From Bacteroidota bacterium (GTDB taxonomy: Bacteria; Bacteroidota; Bacteroidia; Chitinophagales; Saprospiraceae): a DNA stretch of 64,000 nucleotides. The DNA is taken from assembly GCA_024642665.1 (NCBI GenBank), contig JAHEAR010000011.1, positions 26,939-90,938 on the forward strand, written 5' to 3'. The notes beneath the pieces are model-generated. The model was not told the origin of the DNA and did no database searches. It saw only the letters and a program-made list of their open reading frames with translations. The translations under genes were made by a program, and so were the position numbers. Positions 9,000-50,296 of the stretch are shown here, one piece after another; within the stretch, counting starts at the first letter, position 1; every line of letters begins with the position of its first letter.

Positions 9000-9761
9000 A
9001 TGAAAATTTCCGTCATTGTGGTGGCTTATAACGAGGAGCATAACATTCGTCGATGCCTTGAAAGCGTTCAGGATATTGCCGATGAGATGATCGTCGTGGA
9101 CTCCGGATCACAAGATAATACGGTTGCGATTTGTCAGGAACTTGGTGCAGTGGTCGTGATTCAGCAACCATTTCTGGGCATGATCGAGCAAAAAAACTTT
9201 GCCGTAGCCCAAACTAAAAATGATTGGCTGCTCTCTCTTGATGCGGATGAAGCATTAAGTCCGGAACTGAAAAATTCAATCTCTGCAGCCATGGACAATC
9301 CGCAGGCCGATGGGTATTCCATGAATCGCTTATCTTATTACTGCGGTACCTGGGTTCGCCATAGTGGTTGGTATCCTGATATCAAATTGCGGTTTTTCAA
9401 TAAACATAAAGGTCAGTTTTCCGGCATGAACCCACATGACCGATATCAGCTCGAACCAGGTAATACGATTTTGCACCTGCAGGGAGATTTGTTACATTAT
9501 TCTTATTACACACTGAGTGATCATCTCAAACAAATTGATCGATTCAGTACGATAGGCGCTTTATCTATGCATAAACGGGGGAAAACTTCCAGCATCCTTA
9601 AAATCCTATACAAACCGATGGCAAGATTCATACGCCATTATATTCTTAAGGCAGGTTTCCTTGACGGCCTCACGGGGTATACGATTGCGCTCAATAGTGC
9701 CCATGCCGTTTTTCTTAAATACCTCCGCCTCTACTATCTGCAAAAAGGTAAGACCTTATGA
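9000..9761 (+). CDS. Glycosyltransferase family 2, LPS-core type
   Basis: This 253-residue GT-A enzyme has MKISVIVVAYNEEHNI at its N-terminus, VVDSGSQDNT, and the metal-binding LDADEAL motif. A C-terminal section with NPHDRYQL and a run of basic/hydrophobic helices resembles WaaE/KdtX-like transferases that add sugars to the LPS inner core. The ATG at 9000 is preferred over a TTG at 8991 because it opens directly on the first Rossmann strand. A TATCTTGC sequence just upstream resembles a degraded -7 element. It overlaps the next gene by 4 bp (ATGA), so the two glycosyltransferases are translationally coupled and probably act on the same glycan. Confidence 0.88.
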   Translation: MKISVIVVAYNEEHNIRRCLESVQDIADEMIVVDSGSQDNTVAICQELGAVVVIQQPFLGMIEQKNFAVAQTKNDWLLSLDADEALSPELKNSISAAMDNPQADGYSMNRLSYYCGTWVRHSGWYPDIKLRFFNKHKGQFSGMNPHDRYQLEPGNTILHLQGDLLHYSYYTLSDHLKQIDRFSTIGALSMHKRGKTSSILKILYKPMARFIRHYILKAGFLDGLTGYTIALNSAHAVFLKYLRLYYLQKGKTL

Positions 9762-10843
9762 CCGTCCTGCATGTTTCCACCGCAAAAAGTTGGCGCGGGG
9801 GAGAACAACAACTCGCTTATCTAACCACCGCGCTAAATGAGTTCGGTGTTGATCAGGTCGTCCTTTGCCCTGTGGAATCTCCGCTTTCTGAACGAATGCT
9901 GGATGCATCCATCAAAGTCACAACTTTCAAGTCCAGAGGTGTTTTGGATTTTAATCTCGCTCGAACGATTAAAACGCTTTGCACAAGCAAATCATTTGAT
10001 ATCATCCATTGTCATGATTCCCATGCGCATAGTGCTACTGTTTTATCCGCCTACCATTTTGGCAACAGGACACCTGTGGTCGTCAGCAGACGGGTTGACT
10101 TTCCGGTTTCAGGCAATATTCTATCGAAGTGGAAATATAATCATCCATGTATCCATCGCATGATCTGTGTCTCTGAAGCTATCCGCTCCATCTCCGCTCC
10201 AGCTATTAAAGACACTTCTAAATTAACGGTAGTCCACTCCGGAATTGATCTTTCAAAATATCAGAAGCAAACCGGCTATCGAAAGCTTAAGGAAGAACTT
10301 TCATTAAATGATTCCAATAAAATAGTTGGCAATCTCAGTGCGCTGGCTGACCATAAAGATTACCCAACGTTTCTTCGGACCGCATCTGAAGTTATCAAAT
10401 CCGATCCTTCTGTTCATTTTATCATCGCCGGAACAGGACCCGAAGAAAAAAGGATAAAGAAAATCATCCGTGACCTGAAAATAGAAGACCATGTCCACCT
10501 GCTTGGCTTTCGAGATGATGTGGTCGAAGTGATGCAATCGCTAGATGTCTTTTTGATCACTTCCGTTACAGAAGGCCTTGGTACGATTGTCCTTGAAGCT
10601 TTTGCCGCGGGCGTTCCGGTAGTCGCAACACGCGCGGGAGGCATCCCGGAAATGGTGGAAGATGAAGTCACCGGCTTATTAACGCAACCCGGTGATGCTG
10701 ATTCACTCGCTAAGGCAACTCTTCGCCTTCTCCAAGATCCGGCGTTAAGTCAACAACTCGCGCTTAATGCTTCCAATCGTGTCAAAGATTTTTCATTTCA
10801 GGAAACCGCGCGGAGGACTTTAGCGATATACCAGGAAGTGTAG
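9758..10843 (+). CDS. Glycosyltransferase family 4
   Basis: This 361-residue GT-B enzyme contains the N-terminal motif HVSTAKSWRGGEQQLAYL, FDIIHCHDSHAH, and a C-terminal nucleotide-sugar domain with VVHSGIDLSKY, HFIIAGTGPEE and the E-x7-E motif in EGLGTIVLE. It probably transfers a sugar from a nucleotide donor at the cytoplasmic membrane during LPS or surface-glycan synthesis, together with the overlapping GT2 gene upstream. Its TAG stop (10841-10843) lies inside the first unit of a heptanucleotide tract. The gene is convergent with the tricorn-like protease gene. Confidence 0.9.
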   Translation: MTVLHVSTAKSWRGGEQQLAYLTTALNEFGVDQVVLCPVESPLSERMLDASIKVTTFKSRGVLDFNLARTIKTLCTSKSFDIIHCHDSHAHSATVLSAYHFGNRTPVVVSRRVDFPVSGNILSKWKYNHPCIHRMICVSEAIRSISAPAIKDTSKLTVVHSGIDLSKYQKQTGYRKLKEELSLNDSNKIVGNLSALADHKDYPTFLRTASEVIKSDPSVHFIIAGTGPEEKRIKKIIRDLKIEDHVHLLGFRDDVVEVMQSLDVFLITSVTEGLGTIVLEAFAAGVPVVATRAGGIPEMVEDEVTGLLTQPGDADSLAKATLRLLQDPALSQQLALNASNRVKDFSFQETARRTLAIYQEV

Positions 10844-10923
10844 GGCGAAGAGCGCAGGGCGGAGAGCGAAGGGAAGAGAGCGAGGGGCACGAGGCGTAGG
10901 GCGCAGGGTGTAAAGCACGAAGT
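10840..10923. repeat. Heptanucleotide tract, 12 in-phase units (G-rich on +)
   Basis: Every 7 bp the + strand reads NNRGRGC (complement GCYCYNN), with units such as GTAGGGC, GAAGAGC, GCAGGGC, ACGAGGC and GTAAAGC. The phase is kept for 84 bp. The first unit contains the stop codon of the upstream glycosyltransferase. Units reappear in the opposite orientation at 11075-11193. Confidence 0.85.
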
Positions 10924-11189
10924 AAATAATAACAAATAAATGTGATTCTTCGACGCGCGACATGCGACACGCGACCCAGATCCTTTTTTTTGCATTGCGA
11001 GCTTGTGACACGGGAGCATGTGCTTTCGGCTAAAAGTTGAAGAACTATTCTCTTACCGTTTTATCATATACTTTGCTTTACCCTTTACGCGCTGTGCTCT
11101 TCGCCTCGTGCCCTGCGCTCTTCGCCCCATGCCCTACGCCCCATGCTCCATGCCCTGCGCCCTACGCCCTACGCCCTACGCCCTACGCC
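10844..11189. other. Convergent intergenic region, 346 bp, mostly heptad-periodic
   Basis: No gene is seen here. The region consists of two oppositely oriented GCYCYNN tracts around a 151-bp centre (10924-11074). The centre itself holds a short CGACNNG heptad run at 10951-10978. Frames such as 11018-11419 arise only because the C-rich repeat lacks stop codons. Confidence 0.7.
10951..10978. repeat. Second heptad word family (CGACNNN), four units
   Basis: CGACGCG, CGACATG, CGACACG and CGACCCA follow one another in phase. The unit length equals that of the neighbouring tracts, but the conserved word differs. Confidence 0.6.
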
Positions 11190-11193
11190 TCAA
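11075..11193. repeat. Heptanucleotide tract, 17 in-phase units (C-rich on +)
   Basis: There are 17 units of GCYCYNN type in unbroken 7-bp phase. Words include GCTTTAC, GCTCTTC, GCCTCGT, GCCCTGC, GCCCCAT, GCTCCAT and four consecutive GCCCTAC. The last unit (GCCTCAA) contains the TGA stop of the leftward protease gene. On the minus strand five GGG runs spaced by 4 nt (11153-11183) make a canonical G-quadruplex motif. Confidence 0.88.
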
Positions 11194-14100
11194 GTCTTCC
11201 CATTCTTTGTCCTGTCTTCCTTCTCAGGAACTTTCGGATGTATCGGACCCTTTTCGCCGATGCTCTTCATCACTTCCTCAATCGCTTTTTGCAATTGCGT
11301 ATCAATTCCTTTTGCTAACATGGTCGGATCTTCCTTTACTTCAATATCTGGATCCACTCCGTGACCTTCCAGAAACCAGGTGCCATCTGGATTATACATT
11401 CGGAAAGTTGGCACTGTGACCATACCACCATCGATCAGGGAAGGTGCCCCTGAAATCCCAATCAATCCACCCCATGTTCGCGCACCAATCAGTGGCCCCA
11501 ATCCTGCTTTTCGAAAATAATCAGGGAAGGCATCGCCTCCTGATCCTGACCATCCGTTGATCAACATCGCCATCGAACCAAAATGAGCCACGGGTGGCCA
11601 CTGCCAGTTGTCACCATCGCGGACATCCCAGTAAGCCAATGGCTTTCGATTTAACAATTCAATAAAACGGTCAGGAATCTGCCCACCGTTATTAAAGCGC
11701 TCGTCAATAACAAGACCTTCCTTATTCCATTGACCATAAAACTGACGAACCAATTCATTTTGTCCATCCACACCTGTGCTGGGCACGTAGATATAACCAA
11801 TTTTTCCACCGGATGCCTCATCTACTGCCTTCCTGTTGCCTTCTATCCAGGCAAGATTACGAAGCCTGGTTTCGCTACCCATCGTTGTCACCATAACCGT
11901 GCGCGCTCCTGCAAAATCAGGCTTTGAACTGACAGTCAATTCTACCGCCTTACCGGCCAATCCTTGAAAAGCCGCCCATGGATCAGGCCATTCATTTAAT
12001 GCTATTCCATTGACAGCAAGGATATAGTCACCTTCATTAATATTTACTCCAGGTTCGTCCAACGGAGATCTTACTTCATTATCCCAAGGCGCCCCCCTGA
12101 TAATTTTACCAACAACAAATTGACCATCTTTCTTTGCCCAGTCGATTCCAAGGTAGCCAACTTCCCTTCTTTTAGAAGATTCATTGTCTCCCCCTCCCCG
12201 ATAGGTATGAGAAGCATTCAATTCACCAATCATCTCTCCAATAATGAAATTAATATCCGCCCGATCAACACAATATGGGAGAAGTGCCGCATAGTGCGTA
12301 CGAACCGCATTCCAATCTACACCATGCATTTTTTCATCGTAGAAAAAATCGCGCTGGAAACGCCAGGCATCATTATAAATCTGCGTCCATTCTTCCATGG
12401 GATGAACGGTGGCTTCCATCTCTTTGACAGGCAGCGAACCCTCTATCTTCTGATCAGGAGCAAATTTTACAATACTAAAACCATCTCCCTTAGAAACCAA
12501 AACTTTTTTTCCATCTGCACTAATTTCATAACTGCCGACATCTTCCAAAACAGTCTTCTCTTCACGCTCTTCCAGGTCATAGTACTTCAGTGATCCTGAA
12601 TACTCGCCGGAGCCTGAGTTCGAGTATCTGGAATAAGCAATTTTTCCACTGACGGCACTGAGGTTGCCTAGGTTCCCTGCTTTTGGCGGCAGTACAATCA
12701 ATCGACCTTCGAAATTGTCAAAATCAATTTTAATATCCTTGGCTTTTTCATCCGCTTTATCTCCATTATCGGAAACACCCGTATTCTTTTTTTTATCTTT
12801 TTTGTCGTCCTTTGTCACTTCCTTCTTTTCAGCATCATCGCTCTTATCTTCAGCCATGGCAATCGCTACCGTATCGTTTTTTGTGGACAAGGGACTAATG
12901 ATATCTTTGGTCAACGTAATTACTGCCACCTCCGATGCATTTGGATAGGCCCAGGTGTTATCAAAACTGCTATAGACGGGGCTGAAATTTCTATTCGTGA
13001 CCAGATATAAGTATTGACCATCCGGATCAAACGTTGGGTTCTGATCATTATAAAAACCACTGGTCACTTGTTTACTTTCTTTGGTGGCCAGGTTATACAA
13101 ATAGATTGCTCCGTTTCCATTGGGCTGGGATTTTTCATATGCCAGCCATTTGCTGTCTGAAGACCAGCTTGGTTTCCAGTTGCGCAAACCCCCTTCGAAG
13201 AGTCTTCCATCTTGATCTACCCGATCCAATGCGTTTGTTTCCATGTTGTAGATATGGAAAGTCATCGTCTGATCTACCCATGACATTTTCTTACTATCAG
13301 GAGACCAGTATATATGATATCTGAATCCAGGTCCCATAGCAGTAAGCTTAGTTTCTTTTGCACCTTGCGTCAGATCACGAATGGTAAGTTCATACTCACC
13401 GGATTTATCACTCCAATAAGCAACATACTTCCCATCAGGAGACCATGCAGGAAACCGTTCAGCAACACCGGAAGTGCGTGTCAAATTCTGAACATACCCT
13501 TCTTCTGCGGGTAAAGAAAATACATCCCCCCGAGCTTCCAACACGACCCTGTTGCCATCCGGAGAAATACCTCCATTCGCTATATAATCGGAGACCTCCT
13601 CGATTTTTGGCTTGACATTAATCAAGTCGCTCACCACGGTGATTTTAACAACTCTGGACGCGTGTGTCTCCAAATCAAGCAAATACATATCACCATTCGC
13701 TTCGTAGACAATCTCCTCTGGTCCTATAGCAGGAAAGTGAATATCGAAATCAGTATAGTTTGTGATCTGTGTGGTGGTTTTCTTTTTTATATCATACATC
13801 CAGATATTATCACGCTGATCACTTCCTCTATCCGACATATAATAGATTCTGTCTTTATGCCACATCGGAAGTTCACTCCCTGCATCGGTATTCGTAATAT
13901 TTGTTGACGCATACGTGTCCAGGTCAAATATCCATATATTACCGTTCATCCCTCCCCGATAGCGTTTCCAGGTATCCATGACGACTGCTCGCTCATTATA
14001 CGCTATCTGTTTTCCATTAGGAGACAAGGCGCCGTACTCTCCATAGGCCATGGGTAATTTTTCTGAAAATCCACCATTTGCATCAACACTATAGAATTGG

Positions 14101-14504
14101 GAAAATCGCTGCTTACCACTTTCTCTTGAAGAGGTATAAAGCAATTTATCCCCTGATGGATACCAATCAATCAATCGATCACTCATCCCATGAAACGTTA
14201 CACGCTCAGGAATACCTCCTAATGAAGGCATAACATAAATATCATAATTGCCATCATAATTGCCTGAAAACGCAACATGAGATCCGTCCGGGGAAAACCT
14301 TGGGAATCCTTCTGCACCGGAGGGCGAACTAAGTTTGGCAGCGGTCCCGCCTTCTTTATCAACGATCCAAATATCTCCTCCATACGAGAACACAATTTGT
14401 GTCTGGGACACATCAGGTGTCCGAAACATCCTTGCACTGATTTGTGCCGTGGAGATTTGAATCGCAACAATGGACAAACAAAGTAGTAAAAGAAAATTTT
14501 TCAT
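11190..14504 (-). CDS. Tricorn-like S41 peptidase with N-terminal propeller and PDZ domain
   Basis: The 1104-residue protein begins with a signal peptide (MKNFLLLLCLSIVAIQISTAQ) and should act in the periplasm or at the surface. Residues ~25-530 are two sets of PD40/WD40-like strands (FSPDGSHVAFSG, ISPDGNRVVLEA, WSPDGKYVAYWS). A Lys/Asp-rich linker lies around 555-600. A core-domain helix region (WTQIYNDAWRFQRDFFYD) is typical of tricorn homologues, then a PDZ domain (~790-870), then the S41 catalytic half with LVIDERFNNGG and the nucleophile segment GWSGSGGDAFPDYF. Family members cleave peptides, often as oligomers. Length is normal. The 3' end runs directly into the heptad tract. Confidence 0.92.
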   Translation of the reverse strand: MKNFLLLLCLSIVAIQISTAQISARMFRTPDVSQTQIVFSYGGDIWIVDKEGGTAAKLSSPSGAEGFPRFSPDGSHVAFSGNYDGNYDIYVMPSLGGIPERVTFHGMSDRLIDWYPSGDKLLYTSSRESGKQRFSQFYSVDANGGFSEKLPMAYGEYGALSPNGKQIAYNERAVVMDTWKRYRGGMNGNIWIFDLDTYASTNITNTDAGSELPMWHKDRIYYMSDRGSDQRDNIWMYDIKKKTTTQITNYTDFDIHFPAIGPEEIVYEANGDMYLLDLETHASRVVKITVVSDLINVKPKIEEVSDYIANGGISPDGNRVVLEARGDVFSLPAEEGYVQNLTRTSGVAERFPAWSPDGKYVAYWSDKSGEYELTIRDLTQGAKETKLTAMGPGFRYHIYWSPDSKKMSWVDQTMTFHIYNMETNALDRVDQDGRLFEGGLRNWKPSWSSDSKWLAYEKSQPNGNGAIYLYNLATKESKQVTSGFYNDQNPTFDPDGQYLYLVTNRNFSPVYSSFDNTWAYPNASEVAVITLTKDIISPLSTKNDTVAIAMAEDKSDDAEKKEVTKDDKKDKKKNTGVSDNGDKADEKAKDIKIDFDNFEGRLIVLPPKAGNLGNLSAVSGKIAYSRYSNSGSGEYSGSLKYYDLEEREEKTVLEDVGSYEISADGKKVLVSKGDGFSIVKFAPDQKIEGSLPVKEMEATVHPMEEWTQIYNDAWRFQRDFFYDEKMHGVDWNAVRTHYAALLPYCVDRADINFIIGEMIGELNASHTYRGGGDNESSKRREVGYLGIDWAKKDGQFVVGKIIRGAPWDNEVRSPLDEPGVNINEGDYILAVNGIALNEWPDPWAAFQGLAGKAVELTVSSKPDFAGARTVMVTTMGSETRLRNLAWIEGNRKAVDEASGGKIGYIYVPSTGVDGQNELVRQFYGQWNKEGLVIDERFNNGGQIPDRFIELLNRKPLAYWDVRDGDNWQWPPVAHFGSMAMLINGWSGSGGDAFPDYFRKAGLGPLIGARTWGGLIGISGAPSLIDGGMVTVPTFRMYNPDGTWFLEGHGVDPDIEVKEDPTMLAKGIDTQLQKAIEEVMKSIGEKGPIHPKVPEKEDRTKNGKT

Positions 14505-37297: not shown

Positions 37298-37346
37298 GGG
37301 ACGCGAGATGCCAGACGCGGAGGGCAGAGGGCAAAGGGCGAAGAGC
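37298..37346. repeat. Heptanucleotide tract, 7 units (G-rich on +)
   Basis: Units ending in GC follow in 7-bp phase: GGGACGC, GAGATGC, CAGACGC, then GGAGGGC, AGAGGGC, AAAGGGC and GAAGAGC. The last four are of the NNRGRGC type found at 10840-10923. The tract sits between the divergent esterase and ATP-grasp genes. Confidence 0.7.
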
Positions 37347-37381: not shown

Positions 37382-37429
37382 TCACAATATCACAAAATCA
37401 TCAAATCACAAAATCACCCCATCACAAAA
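37382..37429. repeat. Octanucleotide tract (TCACAAAA type), 6 units
   Basis: TCACAATA, TCACAAAA, TCATCAAA, TCACAAAA, TCACCCCA and TCACAAAA follow in strict 8-bp phase. It ends 26 bp before the ATG at 37456 and so lies in the promoter/leader region of the ATP-grasp gene. Confidence 0.75.
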
Positions 37430-37455
37430 TATCTAAAATATTTCTACATTTAAGC

Positions 37456-39984: not shown

Positions 39985-40033
39985 GCCCTACGCTCCATGC
40001 CCCATGCCCTGCGCCCCATGCTCCATGCTCCAT
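39985..40033. repeat. Heptanucleotide tract, 7 units (C-rich on +)
   Basis: Seven GCYCYNN units in phase (GCCCTAC, GCTCCAT, GCCCCAT, GCCCTGC and repeats of these) end 10 bp before the stop codon (40044) of the leftward amidotransferase gene. The G-rich strand is therefore in that gene's 3' UTR. Confidence 0.82.
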
Positions 40034-49848: not shown

Positions 49849-49897
49849 GCCCTACGCCCTTTGCCCCATGCCCCATGCCCCATGCTCCATGCCTTTT
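49849..49897. repeat. Heptanucleotide tract, 7 units (C-rich on +)
   Basis: GCCCTAC, GCCCTTT, three GCCCCAT, GCTCCAT and GCCTTTT follow in phase and run into the first 121-bp unit. Confidence 0.82.
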
Positions 49898-50251
49898 GCC
49901 CCCGACCCCTAAAGGGGAGAATACACTCCGTACCTGATGCCTTCTGCCTTCCGCTTAGCTTAACACCTTGATCCACGCCCCGCGCCCTTTGCCCTTTGCT
50001 CTACGCCCTTTGCCTTTTGCCCCCGACCCCTAAAGGGGAGAATACACTCCGTACCTGATGCTTTTTGCCTTCCGCTTAGCTTAACACCTTGCTCCACGCC
50101 CCGCGCCCTTTGCCCTTTGCTCTACGCCCTTTGCCTTTTGCCCCCGACCCCTAAAGGGGAGAATACACTCCGTACCTGATGCCTTCTGCCTTCCGCTTAG
50201 CTTAACACCTTGCTCCACGCCCCGCGCCCTTTGCCCTTTGCTCTACGCCCT
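49890..50251. repeat. 121-bp tandem repeat, three near-identical copies
   Basis: The CCCCTAAAGGGG core recurs at 49906, 50027 and 50148, exactly 121 bp apart; identity breaks at 49889 on the left and 50252 on the right, giving 2.99 units. Only a few substitutions separate the copies, such as TTGATCC in copy 1 against TTGCTCC in copies 2 and 3. Each unit contains heptads (GCTCCAC, GCCCCGC, GCCCTTT, GCTCTAC) and the hairpin core. Near-identity indicates recent duplication. Confidence 0.92.
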
Positions 50252-50296
50252 AGGCTCCATGCCCCTTGCCCCATGCTCCCCGCCCCTTTGCTCAAT
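50212..50296. repeat. Heptanucleotide tract, 12 units, ending in a promoter
   Basis: From the third 121-bp unit onward, GCTCCAC, GCCCCGC, two GCCCTTT, GCTCTAC, GCCCTAG, GCTCCAT, GCCCCTT, GCCCCAT and GCTCCCC run in phase. An 8-bp unit (GCCCCTTT) and GCTCAAT complete it. The TTG at 50288-50290, at the junction of the last two units, is the -33 element of the downstream promoter. Confidence 0.82.

Follow-up and report, generated by a model that had tools for sequence, protein, structure and literature searches.

Polar short-period tandem repeats at gene borders in the intergenic gaps of a Bacteroidota bacterium

Two inverted tracts of degenerate heptanucleotides between a glycosyltransferase gene and a protease gene belong to a larger set of repeats in the gaps of this genome. 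We give about even odds (probability roughly 0.5) to the reading that these are lineage-specific, dispersed and polar tandem repeats, mostly with units of 7 or 8 bp, which build up in the gaps starting from the borders of genes. The window analysed here is a stretch of 64,000 nucleotides corresponding to positions 26939-90938 of contig C33 in the source genome, G000, a 3.7-Mb draft in 72 contigs. It was compared with G001, one other genome of the same genus, which is also a draft.

The repeat-filled gap of the window

In G000 the gap measures 346 bp, and both stop codons lie inside repeats. The flanking genes and the repeat features of the window are listed below.

9758-10843, plus strand: GT4 glycosyltransferase gene, ending in TAG inside gTAGggc
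10840-10923, C-rich on the minus strand (G-rich in the sense of the glycosyltransferase mRNA): tract 1, 12 phased heptamers, with the stop codon in the first unit, gTAGggc
10951-10978, no strand: core between the tracts, four phased heptamers (CGACGCG, CGACATG, CGACACG, CGACCCA), read by eye
11075-11193, C-rich on the plus strand (G-rich in the sense of the protease mRNA): tract 2, 17 phased heptamers, with TGA in the last unit
11190-14504, minus strand: tricorn-like S41 protease gene, ending in TGA inside tTGAggc
37319-37346, minus strand: short GCYCYNN array of 4 units in a divergent gap
37382-37430, plus strand: period-8 repeat of the TCACAAAA / ATCAC type, representing a second word family and also located in that divergent gap
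39985-40033, plus strand: 7-unit GCYCYNN array that obeys the polarity rule described below and lies 10 bp away from a minus-strand gene, at its 3′ end
49849-50288, plus strand: four GCYCYNN arrays between two plus-strand genes, partly inside a 121-bp tandem repeat

The initial annotation had described two phased, inverted heptamer tracts at 10840-10923 and 11075-11193 that contain the stop codons of both genes, and these observations were confirmed. The four words said to be shared by the tracts (GCTTTAC, GCTCTTC, GCCTCGT and GCCCTGC) were all found in both. The proposed consensus GCYCYNN was slightly too tight, position 4 being C in 91% (G000) and 95% (G001) of the units in strict runs, which are defined here as three or more consecutive GC[CT][CT][CT]NN units. 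The 7-bp phase holds, but 3 of the 12 units of tract 1 are off this pattern, and strict runs in that tract are limited to 10840-10867 and 10875-10902; the last 14 units of tract 2 (11096-11193) form a single unbroken strict run. The core heptamers at 10951-10978 are of the same word kind as GTCGCG elsewhere, and matches to the stretch 10949-10974 were found in two other gaps.

The initial annotation had suggested that a read-through transcript could fold back on itself. As RNA, each strand of the gap has a strong predicted fold (z-scores of -7.9 and -6.9, with 0 of 100 shuffles as good in each case). This foldback probably follows from two arrays pointing at each other, rather than being the reason that the arrays exist. 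A simple scan of 10700-11300 found no intrinsic terminator (a GC stem-loop followed by a T run), and within the window the only Rfam match at gathering score was a tRNA, away from the gap. SprB and outer-membrane barrel domains are encoded nearby, which would suit a member of the Bacteroidota. The 121-bp unit at 49890-50251, present in three copies with 97% matches, contains GCYCYNN arrays and lies directly upstream of the gene for a 1362-aa SprB-repeat/OmpA protein.

The G001 orthologs of this gene pair overlap by 4 bp where they meet, no heptamers are present there, and the junction carries a terminator-like hairpin of 13 pairs (one strand was scored). The two genomes therefore differ at this site by about 350 bp, with the core counted in. 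The glycosyltransferase ends in YQEV and is shorter at its C-terminus than the G001 ortholog, which ends in YQQILGKTGN; the C-terminal residues of the protease (NGKT) are nearly as in G001, with TGA as the stop codon in G000 and TAA in G001. The window gap resembles an intrinsic terminator in its position at gene 3′ ends, in its predicted foldback and in the hairpin at the orthologous site, but the G000 gap is without the short GC stem and subsequent T run.

Distribution, polarity and word families

Frequencies were taken from 864 kb of G000 (four 200-kb pieces and the window; 88% coding), the only set that is unbiased with respect to array content. Genes were called with our own hexamer scorer, and gene starts are therefore approximate. 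It had been argued in advance that a pattern equally common in coding DNA, or no more frequent than chance, would not be a dedicated element. The 864-kb set contained 39 strict runs, against 1, 0, 1, 0 and 1 in five second-order Markov controls, and all 39 lay outside predicted genes; the pattern thus largely withstood these tests. Strict runs were likewise intergenic in 39 of 39 (G000) and 40 of 41 (G001) cases in the targeted regions, all of those from G000 and part of those from G001 having been picked for holding arrays or for matching array regions. With a looser score (segments scoring at least 14), 13 of 57 segments in the 864-kb set and 7 of 48 and 6 of 52 in the other sets fell in coding DNA; these are presumably weak chance matches. 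Segments are up to 29 units long, the commonest units are GCCCCAT and GCTCCAT, and the unit on the G-rich strand approximates NNRGRGC. Enrichment at convergent 3′ ends was also observed and was threefold: arrays occupied 8 of the 92 convergent gaps and 14 of the 457 remaining ones (p = 0.019, odds ratio 3.0).

With tract 2 as the BLAST query, at least 61 matches were obtained in G000 at E values up to 10 (40 of 100 candidate regions were scored). At an E value of 0.001, only G000 and G001 matched among 60 genomes, the source genome included, and GTDB contigs of many different phyla contained an exact 18-base word of the repeat at 112 or more loci. A mobile element carried by phages or plasmids was rejected, as collections of both gave no match, although this is a weak result for a 7-bp repeat because BLAST filters low complexity.

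Within 60 bp of a 3′ end, the strict runs of G000 and G001 were G-rich in the mRNA sense in 51 of 51 cases, and of the 12 runs equally close to a gene start, 11 had the G-rich strand with its 5′ end toward the gene; border runs were thus found mainly at 3′ ends (51 of 63). Counted as GCYCYNN hits within 60 bp of a gene, 64 of 66 read toward it, at starts and stops alike. When the rule was expressed by gap (G-rich on the plus strand in the left half, C-rich in the right half), 103 of 123 segments in all gap classes complied, including 15 of 19 segments in divergent gaps. The polarity follows the gap, not the strand of the gene. Among segments scoring at least 20, to which the analysis of distances and arms was limited, polarity was complete close to genes (47/47 and 9/9 within 60 bp) and faded with distance (3/7 and 5/7 beyond 250 bp), and the order was G then C in all 11 gaps with both arms; most array gaps have a single arm. 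The arrays show a weak gradient along their length: in 45 of 70 decided arrays the lower-scoring half was the one at the G-rich strand's 5′ end.

The same orientation was found outside the genus. Among the at least 112 GTDB loci listed, 45 of 73 runs were placed between two predicted genes, 21 being G-rich on the plus strand and 5 C-rich in the left half, and 19 C-rich and none G-rich in the right half; 14 runs inside predicted genes and 14 without a neighbouring gene had been dropped before this 40-to-5 count. In a set of other taxa that comprised 41 of those loci and 5 of the relative G018, the GCYCYNN polarity was kept in 38 of 40. The supply of stop codons was rejected as the cause of the polarity, since the commonest units carry no stop codon on the G-rich strand and gene starts obey the rule too; it does fit the overlap of arrays with stops.

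GCYCYNN is accompanied by at least five other short words in the gaps of G000. After the arrays had been masked, 65 of 70 array gaps still shared sequence with other gaps, versus 38 of 179 array-free gaps, the pools being unequal (array gaps from both genomes, array-free gaps of 150-1500 bp from G000 only) and leftover degenerate units possibly adding matches. The shared pieces were largely short-period words, namely ATCAC/GTGAT, TTAACC/GGTTA, TTCGTAA/TTACGAA, the 15-bp composite TCTCAGGTC/GACCTGAGA, and GTCGCG. A scan of the 864-kb set for periods of 1-16 yielded intergenic repeats with periods of 7 (29), 8 (12), 14 (8), 15 (4), 16 (3) and 9 (1), and three repeats in coding DNA, with periods of 6, 7 and 12. 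The intergenic periods are 7, 8 or their sums, and hardly any other.

Within 60 bp of a gene, all occurrences of the five additional words, each searched with its own regex, read toward it (ATCAC, 23/23; TTAACC, 9/9; TTCGTAA, 10/10; TCTCAGGTC, 23/23; GTCGCG, 7/7; together 72/72). For TTCGTAA, TCTCAGGTC and GTCGCG the count is of brief word matches rather than long arrays, and several hits may come from one gene end. The 864-kb set alone gave 52 of 52 for the six words. The word families (B, C, D, F and G) were defined once the gap sequences of both genomes had been viewed, and each word was given a single orientation by eye, ahead of the counts and from both genomes, so that G001 is only a partial hold-out. 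Coding DNA contained two hits of TCTCAGGTC and one of GTCGCG. GCYCYNN (54 stops versus 12 starts), TCTCAGGTC (21 versus 2) and TTCGTAA (9 versus 1) preferred stops, and ATCAC preferred starts (17 versus 6 stops), out of 517 stops and 673 starts available beside gaps of at least 100 bp. Generic scoring of the non-GCYCYNN repeats by G or purine content was less clean, with 78 of 101 in this genus after segments with equal G and C had been dropped, and 19 of 31 in other taxa after segments of 45-55% purine had been dropped. G-richness was rejected as a rule for every word: in G versus C scoring, TTACGAA (0/3) and GTCGC (0/3) break it, and for these two only the word orientation holds. TTACGAA-type words were found within 60 bp on the gap side of 23 of 135 GCYCYNN arrays, versus 5 on the gene side, where a wider pattern was used (for example, C41:5938-6459).

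Four other relatives were sampled at 100 kb each. G018 had 7/8-bp repeats of other words and some with periods of 9 and 12; G007 had a few repeats with periods of 8, 10 and 16; and no such repeats were found in the 100 kb sampled from each of G014 and G038. The intergenic 7/8-bp words of G018, a member of the same family, are different ones, for instance TAACCAC and TTAATGG (L279-L283).

The composition of the strand that faces the gene raises the idea of Rho-dependent insulators, in which a C-rich, YC-spaced strand would face a polymerase entering the gene and Rho would stop antisense and read-through transcription at both borders. The strand toward the gene is indeed YC-rich and G-poor for GCYCYNN, ATCAC and TTAACC, and less so for TCTCAGGTC, at both gene ends. 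Rho loading needs only a loose YC pattern, which the degeneracy of the units fits. We nevertheless consider this improbable. TTCGTAA and GTCGCG obey the rule without being C-rich and G-poor. Nor was C-rich, G-poor RNA, as in Rho terminators, found downstream of stops: all 51 runs there are G-rich in the sense direction, the reverse of what Rho would need in order to load on the mRNA of that gene. We know of no Rho in Nostoc. Similar repeats have been described in that genus in the excerpted text of PMC4692102.

Stop codons, unit turnover and transcription termination

Array offsets of -4, -11 and -18 from the stop codon recur, a pattern to be expected where an in-frame stop in the first, second or third unit closes the reading frame. 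TAG was used at 8 of 14 stops with an array within 20 bp, versus 142 of 617 other stops. A few C-terminal residues were changed in several array-bordering genes; at C41:66661 the last codons of the gene consist of the repeat, and the G001 ortholog ends in other residues.

Among 157 conserved adjacent gene pairs, arrays were present in neither genome in 133, in both in 12, only in G000 in 6 and only in G001 in 6, so that 12 of 24 array sites were common to both genomes. In all six gaps with arrays only in G000, the G001 gap was the shorter one (-4 to 505 bp versus 219 to 524 bp), one pair being nearly equal at 505 and 510 bp. Where arrays were present only in G001, the G000 gap was shorter in four of six cases and longer in two, so the presence of arrays is no general explanation of gap size. 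The cosine of unit counts was 0.20 for orthologous gaps (8 shared gaps, not the 12 above) and 0.23 for non-orthologous gaps, and arrays of at least six units resembled those of their own genome more closely than those of the other one (a difference as large arose in 0 of 2000 permutations). For example, GCTCTCC occurred in 3 of 57 G000 arrays and in 12 of 33 G001 arrays, and GCCCTGC in 16 and none, respectively. Sites are thus often shared but units are not, and each genome has its own dialect. The conserved array positions in 12 gaps could reflect selection for a function.

Neighbouring units were identical in 26% (G000) and 29% (G001) of cases, versus 8-9% of random pairs, and runs and higher-order repeats are visible in the arrays. 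These data support replication slippage, which had been offered as one origin of the tracts; slippage alone, however, fails to explain the shared vocabulary, the dialects and the polarity.

Other dispersed sequences were seen in the gaps. An intergenic repeat of about 230 bp (G000:C41:104538-104779; L227:4538-4779) has about 40 matches in G001, and a piece of about 57 bp, often 91-100% conserved, includes by eye a T/A-rich palindrome. This repeat was rejected as a carrier of the arrays, most of the matched gaps being without an array in the sequence examined. Gaps of G001 (for example, L210 and L240-L246) contain repeated CCCCGTGCTTTAGCTCGGGG hairpins and a dispersed element with TGAATGGTAGCCTTTCAATGC, both absent from the G000 part of the same listing. 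At G000:C28:168449-169112, an array gap also appears by eye to contain a tRNA gene followed by a terminator.

The proposal that the tracts are a dedicated transcription insulator largely passed the coding, chance and convergent tests and is partly supported, but it is countered by the polarity at starts and of most segments in divergent gaps, by the other words and by mixed terminator counts. In its bidirectional form, read-through RNA with a G-rich and then a C-rich arm would fold back and stop, and arrays would have replaced conventional terminators. We judge this unlikely, even though the G-then-C order of two-arm gaps, the folding z-scores and the convergent enrichment agree with it, as does the hairpin found at the junction in G001 and not in G000, a pattern that recurs at a second site, C41:108151. 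In Xanthomonas RNA-seq data, transcripts start or stop more often in quadruplex-capable repeats, according to the excerpted text of PMC4692102. Terminators were found in G000 at 0 of 17 array 3′ ends, in 1 of 10 cases with an array elsewhere in the gap and in 48 of 282 without an array, and in G001 in 3 of 17, 5 of 21 and 39 of 182, respectively, by a scan that misses hairpins reaching into genes, such as that at the G001 junction. The complete lack at the 17 ends in G000 is as replacement would predict, but G001 shows no depletion, and only two of five G000-only gaps with a 3′ end have a terminator in G001; replacement was rejected on these mixed counts. Units were common to the arms of one gap just a little more often than to arms taken from separate gaps (11 arm pairs; p = 0.035 and 0.15), and hairpin co-evolution of the arms was set aside as weak. 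Single arms predominate. Polarity is equally strong within 60 bp of gene starts and is shared by most segments in divergent gaps, which excludes a 3′-end terminator as the sole cause.

We return to the reading of border repeats in turnover, which we take to be the most likely one. Arrays would arise or land at a gene border, often beside a stop codon and perhaps at a terminator hairpin, would grow and shrink by 7-bp slippage, and may be homogenised across the genome by recombination. Selection would keep them out of genes, and overrun of the stop codon would be tolerated because stop-bearing units such as gTAGggc end the frame at once. This reading is favoured by the intergenic restriction, the excess over controls, the stop offsets, the identity of neighbouring units and the ortholog gaps, as well as by the fact that several words share period and polarity. 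Counting against it are the threefold convergent enrichment and the strong foldback, as a functional terminator would predict, and slippage with tolerance does not predict the polarity at starts (11/12) or the 72 of 72 for five unrelated words.

Relation to known repeats and possible origins

In earlier descriptions of gene-border heptamers, each organism has one main word and no function is known, as far as the excerpted texts of PMC4692102 and PMC4679880 go. In the former, Rehm et al. (2015) describe G-rich heptamers, GGGAATC and GGGGA(C/T)T, in Xanthomonas and Nostoc, which are intergenic, form inverted pairs, occupy sites common to species with variable length, prefer four units and have no role given there. 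They lie within 50 bp of stops on the coding strand, overlapping them, and upstream of starts on the non-coding strand (PMC4692102, same excerpt). The GCYCYNN repeats are similar in their 7-bp unit, their mainly intergenic location (39 of 39 strict runs in 864 kb), their inverted pairs and their sites shared between genomes; they are likewise G-rich on the sense strand near or over stops (51/51 within 60 bp) and on the non-coding strand upstream of starts (11/12 within 60 bp). They differ in a more degenerate unit of about NNRGRGC instead of GGGNATC or GGGGAYT, in segments of up to 29 units and in being mixed with other short words. The quadruplex criterion of the Rehm type, four G3 tracts by sequence, applied to a minority of GCYCYNN arrays (21 of 67 in G000 and 6 of 29 in G001), and the G-quadruplex was rejected as the defining feature. 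The match in placement and polarity suggests that GCYCYNN repeats work or arise like Rehm repeats, and the arrays can be read as Rehm-like border repeats with a new unit, expanding and homogenised.

MacGregor (2015) reported TAACTGA direct repeats and mixed heptamer assemblages in Beggiatoaceae, Cyanobacteria and Bacteroidetes, with TAACTGA mostly just upstream of start codons in a Beggiatoaceae genome, and with mixed heptamers in Bacteroidetes gaps that are shorter in relatives without them (excerpts of PMC4679880). Heptamer arrays in Bacteroidetes gaps, several per gap and with a patchy taxonomy, are common to those excerpts and the present case. GCYCYNN differs from TAACTGA in its unit and in its location, 51 of 63 border runs lying at 3′ ends rather than upstream of starts, and the excerpts of PMC4679880 state no general polarity rule for TAACTGA. 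The repeats are also like those of Calothrix and other cyanobacteria in being short tandem heptamers, a likeness by description only. Such cyanobacterial heptamers are named STRR. Three heptanucleotide tandem repeats have been reported for Calothrix, as mentioned in the excerpted text of PMC4692102. A polarity common to several words was not found stated in titles or abstract openings, a weak search in which subscription literature is mostly uncovered.

Two further origins would act on the DNA itself. Breaks in gaps, for example at terminator hairpins, might be extended from both 3′ ends by a polymerase that stutters in mostly purine-rich steps of 7 or 8 nt and then joined, which would leave purine-rich words leading away from both genes. 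Such relics of DNA-end extension would explain most simply why the polarity is independent of gene strand and of the word, would account for the periods of 7 and 8, and fit the coincidence of the window site with a 13-pair palindrome in G001. However, most words prefer stops and one prefers starts, the gradient along arrays is weak, and the units form a shared vocabulary. Neither a reverse transcriptase (PF00078, the one model searched) nor Ku (PF02735) was matched in the G000 and G001 drafts; telomerase-like synthesis and Ku-type end joining were rejected on this ground, and we hold end extension in general to be rather improbable.

Alternatively, the words might be polar recognition sites for a DNA-level machine, either Chi-like or a tandem DNA-binding protein, that bracket genes. 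Polar words flank genes, and an enzyme entering from the gap would meet the same orientation at either border; Chi sites, too, follow an orientation rule. Several unrelated words are present here, whereas we know of only one Chi word per species, and Chi is not found as long arrays of the kind seen in these gaps. We regard this origin as very improbable.

A broader formulation, which we hold to be unlikely, is that six or more unrelated words, mostly of period 7 or 8, mark gene borders at the DNA level, all oriented toward the gene at start and stop but differing in the end they prefer, and written by an end-extension or templated process or read by a polar DNA machine, with GCYCYNN polar in several other phyla too. 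Going beyond the known one-word repeats, two related genomes here have several words with a common 7/8 period and a common strand-blind polarity. The repeats hold stop codons and alter C-termini. The shared period and strand-blind polarity form a sharp constraint, which argues against mRNA 3′ ends, G-quadruplexes or stop codons as the sole basis and points to either a DNA process centred on the gap or a function of polar DNA.
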